From the NCBI GenBank assembly GCA_027596195.1, contig JADGJG010000979.1:1-10242 (forward strand): a stretch of 10,242 nucleotides of DNA, in the 5' to 3' direction. Source of the DNA: Podochytrium sp. JEL0797. Lineage: Eukaryota > Chytridiomycota > Chytridiomycetes > Chytridiales > Chytriomycetaceae. How positions within the stretch are numbered: the first letter of the stretch is position 1; each line of letters starts with the position of its first letter. The position numbers and the translations under genes are program-made. The notes under the pieces were generated by a model that was given only the letters and a program-made list of their open reading frames with translations, ran no database searches and was not told the DNA's origin. Below are positions 685 to 10,242 of the stretch, piece after piece.

Positions 685-2788
<2,104 letters not shown>

Positions 2789-2956: not shown

Positions 2957-4269
2957 TCACTTTGTAAACAAACTCGCAATGAATCCCAACAACGCCAGCA
3001 ACACACACATCAGAATACAGCTAAAAACACATCGATTAGTTCACTCACCAATATTCAAGCAAGATACTTACTTCATCATGAACTTGTCTCCAGCCATCAT
3101 CTAAAGACCTACAGTTAGGCCATCATCAAAAAAAAACTTAGAATAACTAACCCCATCGACGGCTTTTCTCATTTGAACATTCACATTGTCTACATGATCT
3201 AGAGCTTTGTCTGCTGCTTTGGTGATTTCTTCGAGATCGTCGTTTTGCCGTTCGAGTTCCTGATTTTCGTTCTCGCATGAGTATTCTCTCGAATGGAACC
3301 AACCCGTGCCAAAATACTCACGTTCCCCATATTCTGAGCCAGTTCTTTGAGTTTCTGTACTCCTTGGCCAATCTCTTCGAGGTCTTGATCCTATCACGTT
3401 CACAACAAATCACGTCTGAGCACTCGAGTGAAAGAATCCAATTCTAACTCACAATTGCTTGATTCTTCTCATTGATTCGTTTGAAATCCTCTTCGACATC
3501 GATATCTGGCAATTCAGTGTTGTTGAACGGATCCTTCCCCTCTCCATAATTTCCTCCGTAATTTCCCTTCATTCCGCCGCCTGCCATCGAACTGATTCCA
3601 CCTGTTACGATCCTCGTCAATTCATTGAATCAGTGTCACCAAATATCTCTTCAAATTCACCTTTGTTTGTAGCTCCAGCCATCAAGTCGGAACGATCCAT
3701 CGCGTATCCTTCATTGAATCTCCTCTTTTCCAAACTCTCGACTTCTTCAATATGCTTATTCGTCAAGTCGAGTACTTCCTTGTACAAAGCCAATTTTTCC
3801 ATCTTGTTGGCGTCCTTGCTTTTCTATAATCGATTCCGCAAAAAATCAATCCCAATCAGGAACCAAATCCCGGTTTGTTACCTTTTTCTCCTCCTTCTTG
3901 CAAATCTCCGCCATCCTCCCCGCCCCCTCTTTCAAATTCCGTATCATGATTCGAATCTTGTAACTCGCTTCCGCCGTTTCCGGGGTCGTTCCAGACGTGC
4001 ACAGCATATCTTCACGCTCTTTGAGCGCTTGTCGACACCCTTTCACGTCGGCTGCGATTTTCTTTTTGAGGCGTTGGAATTCGTCTAATCTGTTTGGTGT
4101 GGAGATACGATGGTGAGGATCAAGTTGAGGCTATTTGACGCGTTTTGACATCAGGTTGTCAGGGGCAAGAAACGAACCCGAGTTCAGCTTGCTTCGCCGC
4201 GATCGCTTCGGGTACGCAGTTTTCGTAAATGACTTGAAGTCGTTGCATGGCGTCCCGCATGGAAGACAT
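2957..4269 (-). CDS. Tail-anchored Qc-type SNARE, SYP7-like (complete, eight exons)
   Basis: Exons on the minus strand: 4269-4178, 4089-3882, 3823-3661, 3601-3453, 3390-3322, 3259-3152, 3100-3072 and 3020-2957, giving 293 aa in one frame. Introns are 51-88 nt. The N-terminal 150 residues are charged and helical, then comes a Gly-rich linker (MAGGGMKGNYGGNYG). The SNARE motif spans about 195-262 and its central layer residue is Gln232 in ELERQ. It is followed by the membrane anchor CILMCVLLALLGFIASLF (274-291) and a two-residue tail. Aligned from memory, the motif matches plant SYP71-type Qc-SNAREs without gaps (LKELAQNM..ELERQ..DDLEEI..NVNVQM), and the N-terminal helical layout also fits; syntaxin-6 or -8 types are the alternative. 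It would supply one helix to a trans-SNARE bundle on ER, Golgi or plasma membrane. The second GT of exon 3 (3639) and the acceptor at 3272 are alternatives that also keep frame. Acceptor 3260 was chosen because it keeps the heptads unbroken. Confidence 0.85.
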
Positions 4270-4381: not shown

Positions 4382-4383
4382 TT
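4378..4383 (-). terminator. Poly(A) signal AATAAA overlapping the PIG-H stop
   Basis: The minus strand reads TAATAAA, so the TAA stop at 4384-4382 shares bases with AATAAA. This supports the end chosen for PIG-H, although the GTAAGTAT just before it could instead be a splice donor. Confidence 0.5.
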
Positions 4384-5303
4384 ATATACTTACGGCCTCT
4401 GCAGGAGGTGCATCTCCAAGCAAAATCCGCCTCGACTCCCAAAACGCGTGTTTTACAAACTTCAATTTCGGCAGACACGACTACACCAAAAATCGAATTA
4501 GCATCAACCTAAATACACATGCGCGCGCGCAAACTCACCCCAAACACAACCAACATCTCCTTCTCCCCATCCACAATCACAGCCATATAATACTTGACCT
4601 GGAACAGCGTGATGGCCTCGTTGACAACGATTTCGGATATTTTGTTGGCTGGGATGAAGCGGGTGGAGGATGTGAATCCGCGTGTGGTTCGCGTTTGGAG
4701 GCCAATGTTTTGGATGAGGAGGAGGGATTCTACCGTTTTGTCGGTAAGGTAAATCGGAATGGCTGGCGTGGAGGTTACCTTCATATACAGTTGCATATTT
4801 CGAGAATATCAAGAACATCAAGATGAGAGCGCTAAGAAGGGCTGGTGTGTTTTTCGACAAGGACTGGATATTCGATTCGAGGCCCTGTTGACAACAGAGA
4901 CGTTCATCCAGTGCCCGTTTAGCCAACGACAATAAAGACCGATATCAACGTACAACAGATCCACTGACAACGAAATGATGCGCGAGAACCGCGAGACAAA
5001 CAGCGCAGACGGATCCATCAATCGCAGACCAAAACCGCCTTTTCGTTTGAATTTGAATTCAGCAACCGACAGACAAGGTTTCTCAACGATGAAGAGTAGA
5101 TTCGGTGATACAAGGGTCTCTTGGTGATTGGGTCTGGGAGGACTCGCGATGGTTGGGTCACTGGGGATGGGTGACTCCAAACGAGTTGAGGATATCCGTG
5201 AGGGGCTGCGGGTGACTGGGGATTTCGGCTTCGCATGATCTTGTTGACTGTGTGTTTGCACTGGCGGAACACTCAGTGCGGCAAACCCCCTCCCCCGCCT
5301 CAT
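4382..5303 (-). CDS. PIGH: PIG-H / GPI15, subunit of GPI N-acetylglucosaminyltransferase
   Basis: PIG-H belongs to the ER complex that transfers GlcNAc to phosphatidylinositol, the first step of GPI-anchor synthesis; PIG-A is the catalytic subunit. Proposed minus-strand exons: 5303-4950, 4884-4779, 4729-4539 and 4480-4382, about 249 aa. The domain is clear in the last three exons: a hydrophobic segment at about 133-150 (ALLSALILMFLIFSKYA), then EESLLLIQNIGLQ (153-165), STRFIP (175-180), IVVNEAI (187-193), VKYYMAVIVDGE, and a final amphipathic part ending in WESRRILLGD. Joining exons 2 and 3 across a 49-nt intron rebuilds the family hallmark Y-E-E-S-L-L. The end of exon 1 is uncertain: donors GTTGAT (4949) and GTGGAT (4964) both keep frame. 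The N-terminus is a Pro/Ser-rich stretch unlike the compact human one, and ATG 5303 is simply the first in frame, 41 bp past the preceding gene's stop. A later start is possible. Confidence 0.85.
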
Positions 5304-6343: not shown

Positions 6344-7825
6344 TCAATCCATCCGAAACAAAAACGCCGGCCACCCACCACACTCCCGCACCTTCTCCTT
6401 CATTTCCTCCCTCACACCTTCACACCCTTGCCTCCCAAGCAACAAATACATTTGAAAATCAAGCGCCACTTCCACCTGCTCTTTCCACTTCGTCACTCCC
6501 GCACCACCACCCACATCCCCACGGCTCCGAATCACCGTCTCAGAAGCCTCAACAATCCACCGCGCGAATCGGAACAAGGCCACCAAAAACGCGTCGCTTC
6601 CGTTATACCTCCACACATCCCATTCCGATTCAAGGTACGGCTGCATCCAGTCCGACGCATCAATTTCGGAAATCTGATCCCCTTCCACCCCCAATTTCTC
6701 TCCACCTCCTACAAACACACTCCCAACCCGTGCAAGCACATCACCCAATTCGAAATCAGACCCCCCTCCCCCCCGCGCCGCTACAATCACAAACAACCCC
6801 TGCAAATAACACCACGGCGACTTGTGTCCCGGATACGCCACAATCAATCCCATCGTTGTTCGCGTCTCGTTCAACAGGAACGCGTCGCGGTCGAGAAACT
6901 GTGGGTCGTTGAGAATGGTTTCGAGGACGGAGAGGGCGTGTGCGAAGGCACTGTGTTCGCTAATATGGGATTGGATGTAGGATTTTGTGGTTTCGAAGGC
7001 GGATAGTTTGAACTGTTGGTTCCCCCTATTTCAGAATAACTTGTGCAGGGTTTGGAGAGATGAGGCTCACCTCCAACGACGCATCCCGTACAACCTTCCA
7101 TCGATGAGACCATGCATGATAATTCATACGATGCCTCTGCGCCGCTTGATCGCAAACGCGCAGTTCATGTTCAAGCATTAATATCGGATCCGATGCCGTG
7201 GCAAGAAGTTGGGGAAGAACCCACGCGCGGTGAGACCACGCGGCGGGACGTTTCGGGTGTTTCGAGAGAACGAGGTCAATGAGGGCGAGTTCTTGGTGGA
7301 GGGAGAGGGTCGGGTGGTGGAGGTTGAGCAGCTTTTTTCTTTGTTTTGACGGGATCAGAACAGCGGGTGTTGGTGAAGGGAGTGTTACCGAACATTCCAG
7401 GCGGTATAGATCTCTGGGTTCATGAGAACTAGGCATTTGGACGAGACTTCGAGGCGATCCAATTCTGATCGATGAAAGCCGTCAACCTCTGAAATCGGCG
7501 TGATCAAGAACTCACCCTCCCCCGTCAAACCCCCCACTGGATCCCGATCAAACCGCCCCGCAAGGCCAAAAAACACCTTATGCGAAGCACGACACAACCC
7601 CGGGATCGCATTCGCAGGAACGCCCAAATTGCCTTCGACAATCACGAAGGGAGAGAACGGGTCCGTCTCGGGGAGAGGAGAGAGGGAAGCCACGGGTGGA
7701 ACGAATCCGAATTCCGTCAGGGTCGAGGGTGGGTGGGCCGTGAGGAGGCGTGCAAAGGTTTCAAACAGGTCGGCGGCTTCGGGTTTCATTCTCTTTCGCG
7801 AAACAAAGCAAAACGAATCACTCAT
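6344..7825 (-). CDS. PTAR1: PTAR1-like protein prenyltransferase alpha-subunit-repeat protein
   Basis: Minus-strand exons: 7825-7516, 7464-7389, 7338-7071 and 7012-6344, giving 440 aa (human PTAR1 about 400). Introns of 51, 50 and 58 nt all keep frame. The repeats that define the family are visible: TAWNVRK at 124-130, HPKRPAAWSHRAWVL at 156-170, NYHAWSHRWKVV at 200-211 and YPGHKSPWC at 278-286. The spacing, and the N-terminal VEGNLGVPA, match human PTAR1 (VENKLGVES, TAWNVRK, AYPGHETLW-like), rather than farnesyl- or Rab-geranylgeranyl-transferase alpha. In animals PTAR1 pairs with RabGGTB as GGTase-III and geranylgeranylates Ykt6 and FBXL2; the same partner here is inferred. ATG 7789 (MKPEAADLF) is an alternative start that better fits the human N-terminus; 7825 is the first in-frame ATG. 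The first intron is a multiple of three with no stop, so it hides within an open frame. Confidence 0.87.
7465..7515 (-). other. In-frame 51-nt intron of the PTAR1-like gene
   Basis: The donor GTGAGT starts at 7515 and the acceptor CGATCAG ends at 7465. The 51 bases contain no stop in the host frame, so an ORF finder reads through them. Removing them joins LTGE to ELDRLEV and brings the protein into line with the human segment before LLLLNPDFTTAWNVR. Without removal the protein gains 17 residues (EFLITPISEVDGFHRSE region). Confidence 0.7.
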
Positions 7826-8302: not shown

Positions 8303-8490
8303 GCTGTTTCTGAGTTCAACAAGCACGCGGAATGACGTCCCGCCCAAAACAAAAAAGCCAAGCATCACGAACTGCGCAATCCATTTCCCGCCCTGTTTCC
8401 GCCCGCAGCACACAAAAAGTCTCGTTGGTGGCAAGGGCGGGGATCGGTCCCCGTGTGGATTAACAAGTTTTAATTTTTAATCTGCTCGTC

Positions 8491-9029
8491 TTACTCCGCT
8501 TTCTCTTGATCATCCTGGATCTCTCCCGTCCATCCAGACTCCTTCTTGATACGACGCGCGACTTCCACGGGCGACTCGTTCTCAAGCTGAATCACCACGA
8601 TCCCATACTCGTGTCCGTCCAAGTCAAGAGCCACCGCCTTGTCACAGGTTGCGTACAAATGAAGATCGGGTTTGGATCCATCCGTGTGGTAGAACACGGC
8701 TGTGCGTGTGTGGCGTGTATGATATTTTCAATCAATATGGCGGACTGCGACTTGGCAGAAGGACTCACCATCCGTGACAATACCAGGGATGTTGGATCCA
8801 ACTTTCACACCCTTCACGAGCTTGTACGCTTCAGCGGGACGAGTGCGGATGCCGCGGATCTGGGCGAACGGGATGGTGACTCCGCCGCTGAGGAGCCAAA
8901 TCAACAACCGGATTCATCACGGCACGGAATAGAGGGAACTTACTTCCATTTAACGGTAAGGATCTTCTCGGGGGTGGAGAGGACGATGGAGAGCGTTTGG
9001 GATTGGTGGTCGAAAGTGAGTTTTGGCAT
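8491..9029 (-). CDS. Small conserved protein, similar to a bacterial PH-like family (complete, three exons)
   Basis: Exons on the minus strand: 9029-8944, 8887-8769 and 8699-8491, giving 137 aa. Introns are 56 nt (GTAAGT donor) and 69 nt (GTGAGT donor), phases 2 and 1. The protein looks all-beta with a last helix: MPKLTFDHQSQTLSIVLS, then EKILTVKW, VTIPFAQIRGIR, VGSNIPGIVTDAVFY, LHLYATCDKAVALDLDG, YGIVVIQLENESPVEVARRI and an acidic tail. This order recalls short bacterial proteins (mostly actinobacterial in my memory) with a PGT-like turn, a V-D-L-x-G strand and a V-x-x-P-E-x-V-A-x-R end, sometimes described as PH-like. The match is from memory and the function is unknown. No signal peptide or membrane segment. 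ATTAAA-like signals follow the stop. A degraded copy lies just upstream at 9191-9447. Confidence 0.75.
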
Positions 9030-9118: not shown

Positions 9119-9190
9119 AATTCTTCGAGTCCCGTCCACCAAGAAAATGAATAACCGATGAGGTCCCAAGTATGATACTTCCTGTTCAAC

Positions 9191-9447
9191 TTACTCCGCT
9201 TTCTCTTGGTCATCATGGATCTCTCCCGTCCATCCAGACTCTTTCTTGATGCGACGCGCAACCTCCACAGGCGACTCATTCTCAAGCTGAATCACAACAA
9301 TCCCATACTATACTCGTGTCCCTCCAAGTCAAGAGCCGCCGCCCGACGCGTTAGATCCTAATATACCGGCTTGTACACTCTCGACTCACCAATCACTGAA
9401 GAGCGAATCGCAGCAGCACTCAATTTCACCTCAAGCGCACGAACATA
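9191..9447 (-). pseudogene. Decayed, internally deleted tandem copy of the 8491-9029 gene
   Basis: Plus-strand 9191-9343 aligns with 8491-8639: it has the same TAA stop and the same last 46 codons, reading YGIVVIQLENESPVEVARR and onward. I count 12 substitutions, 9 of them silent and 3 altering residues (Q to H, D to E, V to A). A 5-base insertion, a repeat of TATAC at about 9307-9315, breaks the frame and puts a stop before YGIVV. Upstream of 9343 homology is lost until 9400-9447, which matches the sequence upstream of the intact gene's ATG. Roughly 370 bases, holding exons 1 and 2 and most of exon 3, are therefore missing. No product is expected. Calling it a pseudogene rests on the frame break plus the loss of the start. 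Confidence 0.82.
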
Positions 9448-9756: not shown

Positions 9757-10242
9757 ATGGCAATGAACATCAAGCTCCGCCTTACAGCTATCTGGCGACA
9801 ACGCAGAGCCATTGCTCAATGGGCCCTCTACCTCTGCGCCGCGCTCCTTGGAATTGCGCTATTTGTGTTCATCAACTCGTCGCAGAGCATGATTTTGACC
9901 AACATTCTGCTCATTCCAACTGACGAGCTTGGTGATAAGGTGCGAAAGACCTTCTCTTTCTTTCCCACATTGAATTCATTCTAACCCCTCATACACCAGA
10001 GCGGAAACCTCTCCTTCGCAGACCAAATCGCGTCCGTATTCGCCGTTTATATAGCGGGCCTGTCTAGCGACTTTATCGGAAGACGATTCGTCTACGCATT
10101 CGGCTTCCTCATGATGGGCATCGGCCTCTGTTTCTACCCCCGGGTCGACAGTTACACCGCCATGATTTGCGTGCGTCTCGTTTTTGCCATCGGCGGAGGT
10201 TGCGCGTCTTCCATGATGACCGCCGTATTGGCTGACTACGCA
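9757..10242 (+). CDS. Major facilitator superfamily transporter, 5' part
   Basis: Exon 1 is 9757-9939 (61 codons). A 60-nt intron (9940-9999, donor GTGCGA, branch TTCTAAC, acceptor CACCAG) is followed by exon 2 from 10000, open to the window end; 142 aa are seen. A basic N-terminus precedes a first membrane segment at about 22-44. The signature motif A of the superfamily is in the loop after the second segment: GLSSDFIGRR (81-90). Segments three and four follow (VYAFGFLMMGIGLCFYP and MICVRLVFAIGGGCASSMMTAVLADYA). The run ILTNILLIPTDELGDKSGNL, then SFADQIA, resembles a group of fungal general-substrate transporters I recall, so the substrate cannot be named. It is the only clear plus-strand gene here and diverges from the decayed copy. 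The ATG is in a good context (ACCAAAATGG); ATG 9763 is an alternative. Confidence 0.88.

Follow-up and report, generated by a model that had tools for sequence, protein, structure and literature searches.

A probable SYP7-type Qc-SNARE gene in the chytrid Podochytrium sp. JEL0797

Described SYP7 proteins and the Podochytrium gene

During cytokinesis in Arabidopsis, SYP71 belongs to one complex with KNOLLE, NPSN11, and VAMP721/722 (PMC5438246), and in Toxoplasma the orthologues of Syp7, NPSN, and StxPM have been tagged to test their presence at the apical annuli (PMC10857790). Among zoosporic fungi, a SYP7-type SNARE was reported in 2006: a putative syntaxin 71 of Blastocladiella emersonii (EST BeAS412), found in sporulating cells only, for which the authors propose a role in zoospore formation (PMC1550239). 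In a 2017 survey, the only groups described as lacking Syp7 and NPSN are “animals and non-basal fungi” (PMC5399786). Kienle et al. (2009) recorded Npsn in Batrachochytrium dendrobatidis and Blastocladiella and listed three fungal Qc.III SNAREs, Tlg1, Syx8, and Vam7; the name “Syp7” does not occur in the main text of that paper (PMC2639358).

We analyzed a stretch of 10,242 nucleotides from the chytrid Podochytrium sp. JEL0797 (hereafter, the window). A sequence-only reading had recognized a SYP7-like gene in it, had taken this subfamily to be absent from most fungi, and had suggested that the fungal SNARE set needed revising. Absence from most fungi is still a common view in print, with a 2018 paper giving Syp7 to plants and protists (PMC6143360) and a 2023 abstract calling SYP71 plant-specific (PMC10277689), but SYP7 in early-branching fungi had already been published (PMC1550239; PMC5399786), and the suggested revision is not a new one. 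Given the 2006 Blastocladiella report and the 2017 survey, the finding is of a known kind; its additions are a named set of chytrid SYP7 members and a candidate locus for an NPSN partner. In the openly licensed PMC literature, we found no paper combining Syp7, SNARE, and Batrachochytrium, and the word Podochytrium occurred in none of the matches listed.

Judged by its sequence, the Podochytrium gene very probably codes for a Qc-SNARE that belongs to the SYP7 subfamily and is tail-anchored. The explanation that we consider likely as a whole is that this SNARE was inherited vertically by chytrids and serves in fusion at the plasma membrane or in zoospore cleavage. Its similarity to the Blastocladiella protein, which comes from a different phylum (Blastocladiomycota), is drawn from the published description.

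As a SYP7 protein, it would assemble with three other SNAREs, namely a plasma-membrane syntaxin (Qa), NPSN (Qb), and an R-SNARE, into a four-helix bundle in which its own helix takes the Qc place. Such a complex would drive vesicle fusion at the cell surface, and probably also at the membranes by which the zoosporangium is divided into zoospores; internal membrane cleavage is known to divide mature chytrid zoosporangia (PMC8887899). By analogy with the described complexes, we lean, if only slightly, toward a role at the plasma membrane or in zoospore cleavage. The protein might instead be a SYP7 that acts mainly between the ER and the Golgi: plant SYP7 has also been assigned to ER or retrograde transport (PMC6143360; PMC7573729), and the Blastocladiella paper cites ER-Golgi transport (PMC1550239). 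This site of action is a serious but minority possibility, considering that the Arabidopsis complex sits at the cell plate (PMC5438246), that the Toxoplasma orthologue was studied together with SyntaxinPM and NPSN (PMC10857790), and that a candidate NPSN is present in the Podochytrium genome.

That candidate (L030, on contig C823) is a Qb-SNARE that matched Arabidopsis NPSN11, a reference typed by hand, at 31% over 103 gap-free residues. The match scored 70.9 bits, while four other, shorter Qb fragments scored 9-24 bits and the best of 200 shuffles 23.5; one exon join (GT-AG) in L030 was chosen with the alignment in view. Searches of the genome with the Arabidopsis sequence or with a DNA pattern did not find an NPSN, and L030 was the weakest of five matches in a V-SNARE_C search (18.8 bits, below the cut-off), being recognized on translation. 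Reading by eye, we take L001, L002, L004, and L005 (contigs C113, C712, and C445) to carry Qa motifs like those of plasma-membrane syntaxins, and L003 to be another Qa SNARE. Two of the four syntaxin-like motifs are neighbors on one contig. The genome presumably also holds, again by eye, Gos1-like, Vti1-like, and Bos1-like Qb genes, Bet1-like, Stx8-like, and Vam7-like Qc genes, and a SNAP-25-like gene.

Placement among SNARE subfamilies

Confirming the earlier alignment to SYP71-type proteins around a central glutamine, the SNARE motif (residues 203-263) gave a gap-free alignment with plant SYP7 in which Gln 232 occupies the 0 layer. All 16 layers are present, the other 15 being occupied by small or hydrophobic residues. 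The C-terminal anchor follows directly after the motif and is likewise gap-free against the plant SYP7 anchor; an anchor helix is predicted in the chytrid relative P0002. Over 54 motif columns, identity was 21/54 with Nymphaea SYP71 and 20/54 with P0029 (a JGI protein), as against 18/54 with SNAP-23, 17/54 with SNAP-29, 16/54 with each of SNAP-25 and syntaxin 6, and no more than 14/54 with the ten remaining non-SYP7 sequences compared. At the level of sequence, the likeness of SNARE plus anchor to SYP7 exceeds chance: the best ungapped profile score was 121, whereas none of 100 column shuffles exceeded 25.8, and a profile-profile comparison of chytrid with plant sequences aligned SNARE plus anchor with a probability of 98.4. 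The Pfam SNARE domain scored 18.5 bits in the window's protein, below its cut-off of 26.8, and an NCBIfam search gave nothing useful.

Many of the reference sequences were typed by hand, and most are motif or C-terminal pieces, which makes a motif-only comparison the fairer one. The 15 plant-type sequences (10 named syntaxin-71/SYP7 by their source, four bearing plant-species names with other labels, and P0096, an unnamed JGI protein) were chosen from the best 120 of 1,089 matches, mostly plants, to a search profile that included typed SYP71. Because a profile already containing SYP71 is circular for classification, we used (i) a profile built only from chytrids (24 sequences) and (ii) a profile built only from plants (15 sequences).

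The chytrid-only profile scored all 15 plant-type SYP7 sequences at 62-78 bits. The best non-SYP7 sequences were the C-terminal helices of SNAP-23 and SNAP-25 (35.8 bits) and SNAP-29 (34.0), followed by STX6 (23.7), STX8 (22.7-23.0), and the genome's SNAP-25-like helix (23.0), with others lower. A typed piece of human USE1 reached 3.3 bits against those 62-78 bits; a Use1 identity was excluded by this profile alone. Conversely, the plant-only profile scored 22 of the 24 chytrids at 41-66 bits, and its best other Qc sequences, STX6 and the genome's Stx8-like sequence, at 30.5. The two low-scoring chytrids, P0010 (30.5 bits) and P0003 (24.5 bits), are both models without a C-terminal anchor. When the profiles were restricted to the motif, the chytrid profile gave the plants 46-53 bits, the SNAP helices, the nearest motif outside SYP7, 40-42 bits, and other Qc sequences at most 24 (STX6 20.4, SYP61 16.3). 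The plant motif profile gave the window's protein 37.5 bits and SNAP-29 29.2, the latter outscoring four of the 24 chytrids (26.5-28.5 bits), among which the window's protein is not found. Both the reciprocal and the motif-only profiles thus place this protein nearer to SYP7 than to any other Qc type tested. On the motif, SYP7 leads the Qbc helices by a narrow margin; including the anchor, which Qbc helices do not have, widens it.

A motif-only tree of 54 columns, built without chytrid P0130 and plant-type P0049, P0055, P0092, and P0096, whose 0 layer was missed by the pattern, did not resolve the families, its alignment being too short. In a tree of 88 columns (motif plus anchor, Qbc helices included, USE1 left out, 15 of 23 chytrid rows), chytrids, plant SYP7, and Qbc helices formed one group (95/97), to which syntaxin 6, syntaxin 8, and Bet1 did not belong. 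In this group, P0029 joined the plants (97/98), plants and P0029 lay among the chytrid rows, and the chytrids were not one clean group; the order was weak, and a constraint that keeps chytrids, plants, and P0029 as one set apart from Qbc was not rejected (p 0.24). Bootstraps of these two trees had not settled, and long branches were present. In a tree from which USE1 and four Qbc rows were left out (seven of 11 plant rows), chytrids, plant SYP7, and P0029 fell together on one side of a branch (90/89). AU tests on this tree rejected uniting the chytrids with STX6/SYP61 (p 0.0016), with STX8, SYP51, and the genome's Stx8-like and Vam7-like sequences (p 0.036), and with the Bet1 type, Bet1/GS15 (p 0.0087). 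All trees were built without Dikarya Qc sequences, fungal Tlg1, or protist SYP7, and the genome's Bet1-like fragment L012 was used in the profile tests and in none of the trees. Had the protein fallen within syntaxin 6/8 or some other standard Qc clade, this would have told against the SYP7-like identity first proposed. For the three clades tested, the unions with STX6, STX8, and Bet1 were rejected, and that identity is supported by these rejections, by the reciprocal profiles, and by the tree without Qbc.

The N-terminal domain offers a mixed comparison. The sequence-only reading had given it the same layout as that of SYP71. AlphaFold2 models of the chytrid relative P0002 (mean pLDDT 77; helices 4-18, 34-63, 67-99, and 105-152) and of plant SYP71 P0067 (pLDDT 75; helices 3-18, 35-59, 63-92, and 100-118) do share a predicted layout, in which helices are followed by a linker, the long SNARE helix, and then the anchor; the third long N-terminal helix is predicted longer in the chytrid. 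The alignment used for P0067 was made up of P0029, 14 plant-type sequences, and five from chytrids. The sequences themselves, however, are not significantly alike. Similarity between chytrid and plant N-termini was at most 8 bits, with a profile-profile probability of 0.2, and the best ungapped segment, although near the expected diagonal, had a score reached by 11 of 200 shuffles. The match to plant SYP71/72/73 lies in the motif, the anchor, and the predicted helix layout, and not in recognizable N-terminal sequence.

A divergent chytrid Tlg1/syntaxin 6, acting in fusion from endosome to trans-Golgi, would share with the syntaxin 6/10, Tlg1, and SYP61 proteins a Qc motif, an anchor, and a helical N-domain of similar predicted fold. 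Foldseek aligned the predicted N-domain of P0002 to syntaxin 6 (1lvf; TM 0.75 by target, E 0.23) and syntaxin 10 (4dnd; 0.80, E 0.57), and six of the 17 family members matched Pfam STX6_10_61_N with E values no higher than 0.01, P0020 alone scoring above the cut-off (32.2 vs 29.4 bits). In addition, an intron-blind and insensitive exon-by-exon search of the genome for a separate syntaxin 6/Tlg1 found only Stx8-like, Vam7-like, and Bet1-like genes. The likeness of the N-domain to syntaxin 6 and the lack of a Tlg1 among the genes found keep this alternative alive. We nevertheless regard it as improbable, because the joint grouping of chytrids with STX6 and SYP61 was rejected, because the chytrid motif profile scored STX6 and SYP61 far below plant SYP7, and because the window's own protein has no Pfam match to STX6_10_61_N. 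Foldseek gave no match at E < 0.001 for the P0002 or P0067 model, its top matches were to a chain of the yeast Sec18-Sec17-Sec9-Sso1-Snc1 complex, the nearest SNARE N-domain to P0067 was that of Vti1 (at a weak E-value), and designed or unrelated helical bundles ranked among the SNARE N-domains. On our reading of these models, the chytrid N-domain may be a three-helix domain common to SNAREs of this kind.

Proteins of the SNAP-25 type carry two SNARE helices and lack a membrane anchor of this sort. Derivation of the chytrid protein from a SNAP-25-type Qbc C-terminal helix, with the first helix lost and an anchor gained, might be entertained because its top sequence matches among solved structures are the C-terminal helices of SNAP-23, SNAP-29, and SNAP-25 (no solved SYP7 structure turned up among the structure-database matches) and because SYP7 and Qbc were not separated in the 88-column tree. 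We think this very unlikely. The protein has only one SNARE motif, preceded by a helical N-terminal domain and followed by a C-terminal anchor, and this architecture separates it from SNAP-25 types where the trees do not; moreover, each of the 15 plant sequences scored above every Qbc helix under the chytrid motif profile, and the genome appears to hold a SNAP-25-like gene of its own (L009, E 0.04, read by eye).

Extent of the gene and its neighbors

The features of the window are collected in Table 1. The splice model reproduced exactly the coordinates and the eight exons given by the sequence-only reading. All seven introns are GT-AG and 51-88 bases long, and the joined exons form one open frame of 293 residues with its stop at 2957. 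Exon 4 includes the conserved stretch LPDIDVEED. In the genome (24.4 Mb, 995 contigs), the only strong match to the protein was the window's own locus; a second, weak match (E 0.018) lay inside the SNAP-25-like gene.

Table 1. Features located in the window, with the basis for each
Feature	Position	Strand	Basis
Probable Qc-SNARE gene, SYP7 type, 293 aa, eight exons	2957-4269	-	splice model and identity to HDU98_012234
SNARE gene, exons 1-4	4269-4178, 4089-3882, 3823-3661, 3601-3453	-	splice model
SNARE gene, exons 5-8	3390-3322, 3259-3152, 3100-3072, 3020-2957	-	splice model
Exons 1-3: predicted N-terminal helical domain	3661-4269	-	AlphaFold2 model of relative P0002; weak Foldseek alignments to syntaxin 6/10 N-domains
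Exon 4: low-confidence linker and start of long SNARE helix	3453-3601	-	splice model and P0002 model
Exons 5-6 and intron between: most of Qc-SNARE motif, with 0-layer Gln 232	3152-3390	-	alignment
Exons 7-8 and intron between: short linker and C-terminal membrane anchor	2957-3100	-	P0002 model; alignment to plant SYP7 anchor
PIG-H-like neighbor gene	4382-4808	-	PF10181, 70.3 bits on P0001
AAA-ATPase frame	987-1541	-	PF00004, 116 bits
Frame with hydrophobic stretch	2102-2788		no Pfam match
Protein prenyltransferase alpha-subunit repeats	7026-7481	-	PF01239, 60 bits
128-base repeat	8482-8609 and 9182-9309		700 bases apart, 90% identity
Second repeat pair, 54 bases	9066 and 9394		83%
Part of major facilitator transporter gene, cut at window end	9985-10242	+	PF07690, 37 bits

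A protein search showed that the 293 residues are identical to residues 116-408 of a 408-residue public model from the same organism (P0001, HDU98_012234), the first 115 residues of which carry a PIG-H domain. By splicing out 4393-4270, that model fuses PIG-H and SNARE. If the public record were right, the real product would be a PIG-H-SNARE fusion protein; the same two parts are joined in three public models (Podochytrium, Chytriomyces, and Rhizoclosmatium), and the window has the GTAAGT donor and AG acceptor that such a splice needs. There is scant likelihood of this. The PIG-H frame has an in-frame stop (4384-4382) directly behind the GTAAGT donor, with the SNARE start 112 bases beyond, and 20 of 31 family proteins, among them P0002 from Siphonaria (86% identical), have M[AS]SMRDA at their very start, as does the window's SNARE in the model adopted here. 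In our reading, the Rhizoclosmatium fusion model also lacks exon 1 and has one stretch out of frame. The fused models are probably an artefact of gene prediction across close tandem genes, and possibly a real read-through splice.

Elsewhere in the window, the frame at 2102-2788 may belong to the same gene as the AAA-ATPase frame, and the repeats may stem from a small gene having been duplicated in part and in tandem. ARAGORN found no tRNA in the window.

Distribution and probable inheritance in Chytridiomycota

A first protein search returned 31 proteins: 27 named to species (the window's included), one under the JGI code Hompol1, and P0029-P0031. Three more came from further searches: Rhizophlyctis rosea, Polyrhizophydium stewartii, and Polychytrium aggregatum. 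With P0029-P0031 not counted, this gives 31 chytrid entries in total, 30 besides the window's. These searches need shared exact words, and the counts cover word-sharing relatives; the Siphonaria entry is flagged UNVERIFIED_CONTAM by its source. By taxonomy look-up, all named species or genera belong to Chytridiomycota, in the orders Chytridiales (which includes Podochytrium), Spizellomycetales, Rhizophlyctidales, Rhizophydiales, Lobulomycetales, Cladochytriales, Polychytriales, and Caulochytriales, plus Quaeritorhiza, of an unplaced family. Both B. dendrobatidis (P0019) and B. salamandrivorans (P0015) carry a family member. P0019 would be a fourth Qc.III SNARE, unless it is the Tlg1 of Kienle et al. 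(PMC2639358). A database search from chytrid sequences alone listed 25 proteins, none of them from a plant, as expected when candidates must have exact words in common. At the sequence level, a link between chytrid and plant SYP7 is provided by P0029, which scored 178 bits over its whole length with the chytrid profile and 61 bits with the plant SYP7 profile.

The sequence-only reading had left a choice between retention from an ancestor and transfer. The spread of the gene over chytrid orders favors inheritance, and transfer is not needed. Horizontal transfer from a plant or alga, for which we found nothing beyond the similarity to plant SYP7 itself, is the least probable explanation, given the seven introns of the window's gene, the 30 other chytrid entries over eight named orders, the report of SYP7 from many eukaryote lineages (PMC5399786), and trees in which chytrids were never nested inside plant rows (the 88-column tree had the reverse, with weak order).

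These results supply concrete genes, many of them named “hypothetical protein”, for a SNARE that is absent from animals and later fungi according to the 2017 survey (PMC5399786). With members in culturable chytrids and a probable partner, a shared ancestry of the plant cell-plate complex and zoospore cleavage becomes testable. We offer tentatively, as a possibility on the unlikely side, that the ancestral plasma-membrane set of syntaxin PM, NPSN, and SYP7 survives complete in chytrids beside SNAP-25-type machinery, and serves there for vesicle fusion in zoospore cleavage as it serves plants for the cell plate. If so, the loss of this set would accompany the loss of zoospore cleavage in later fungi.
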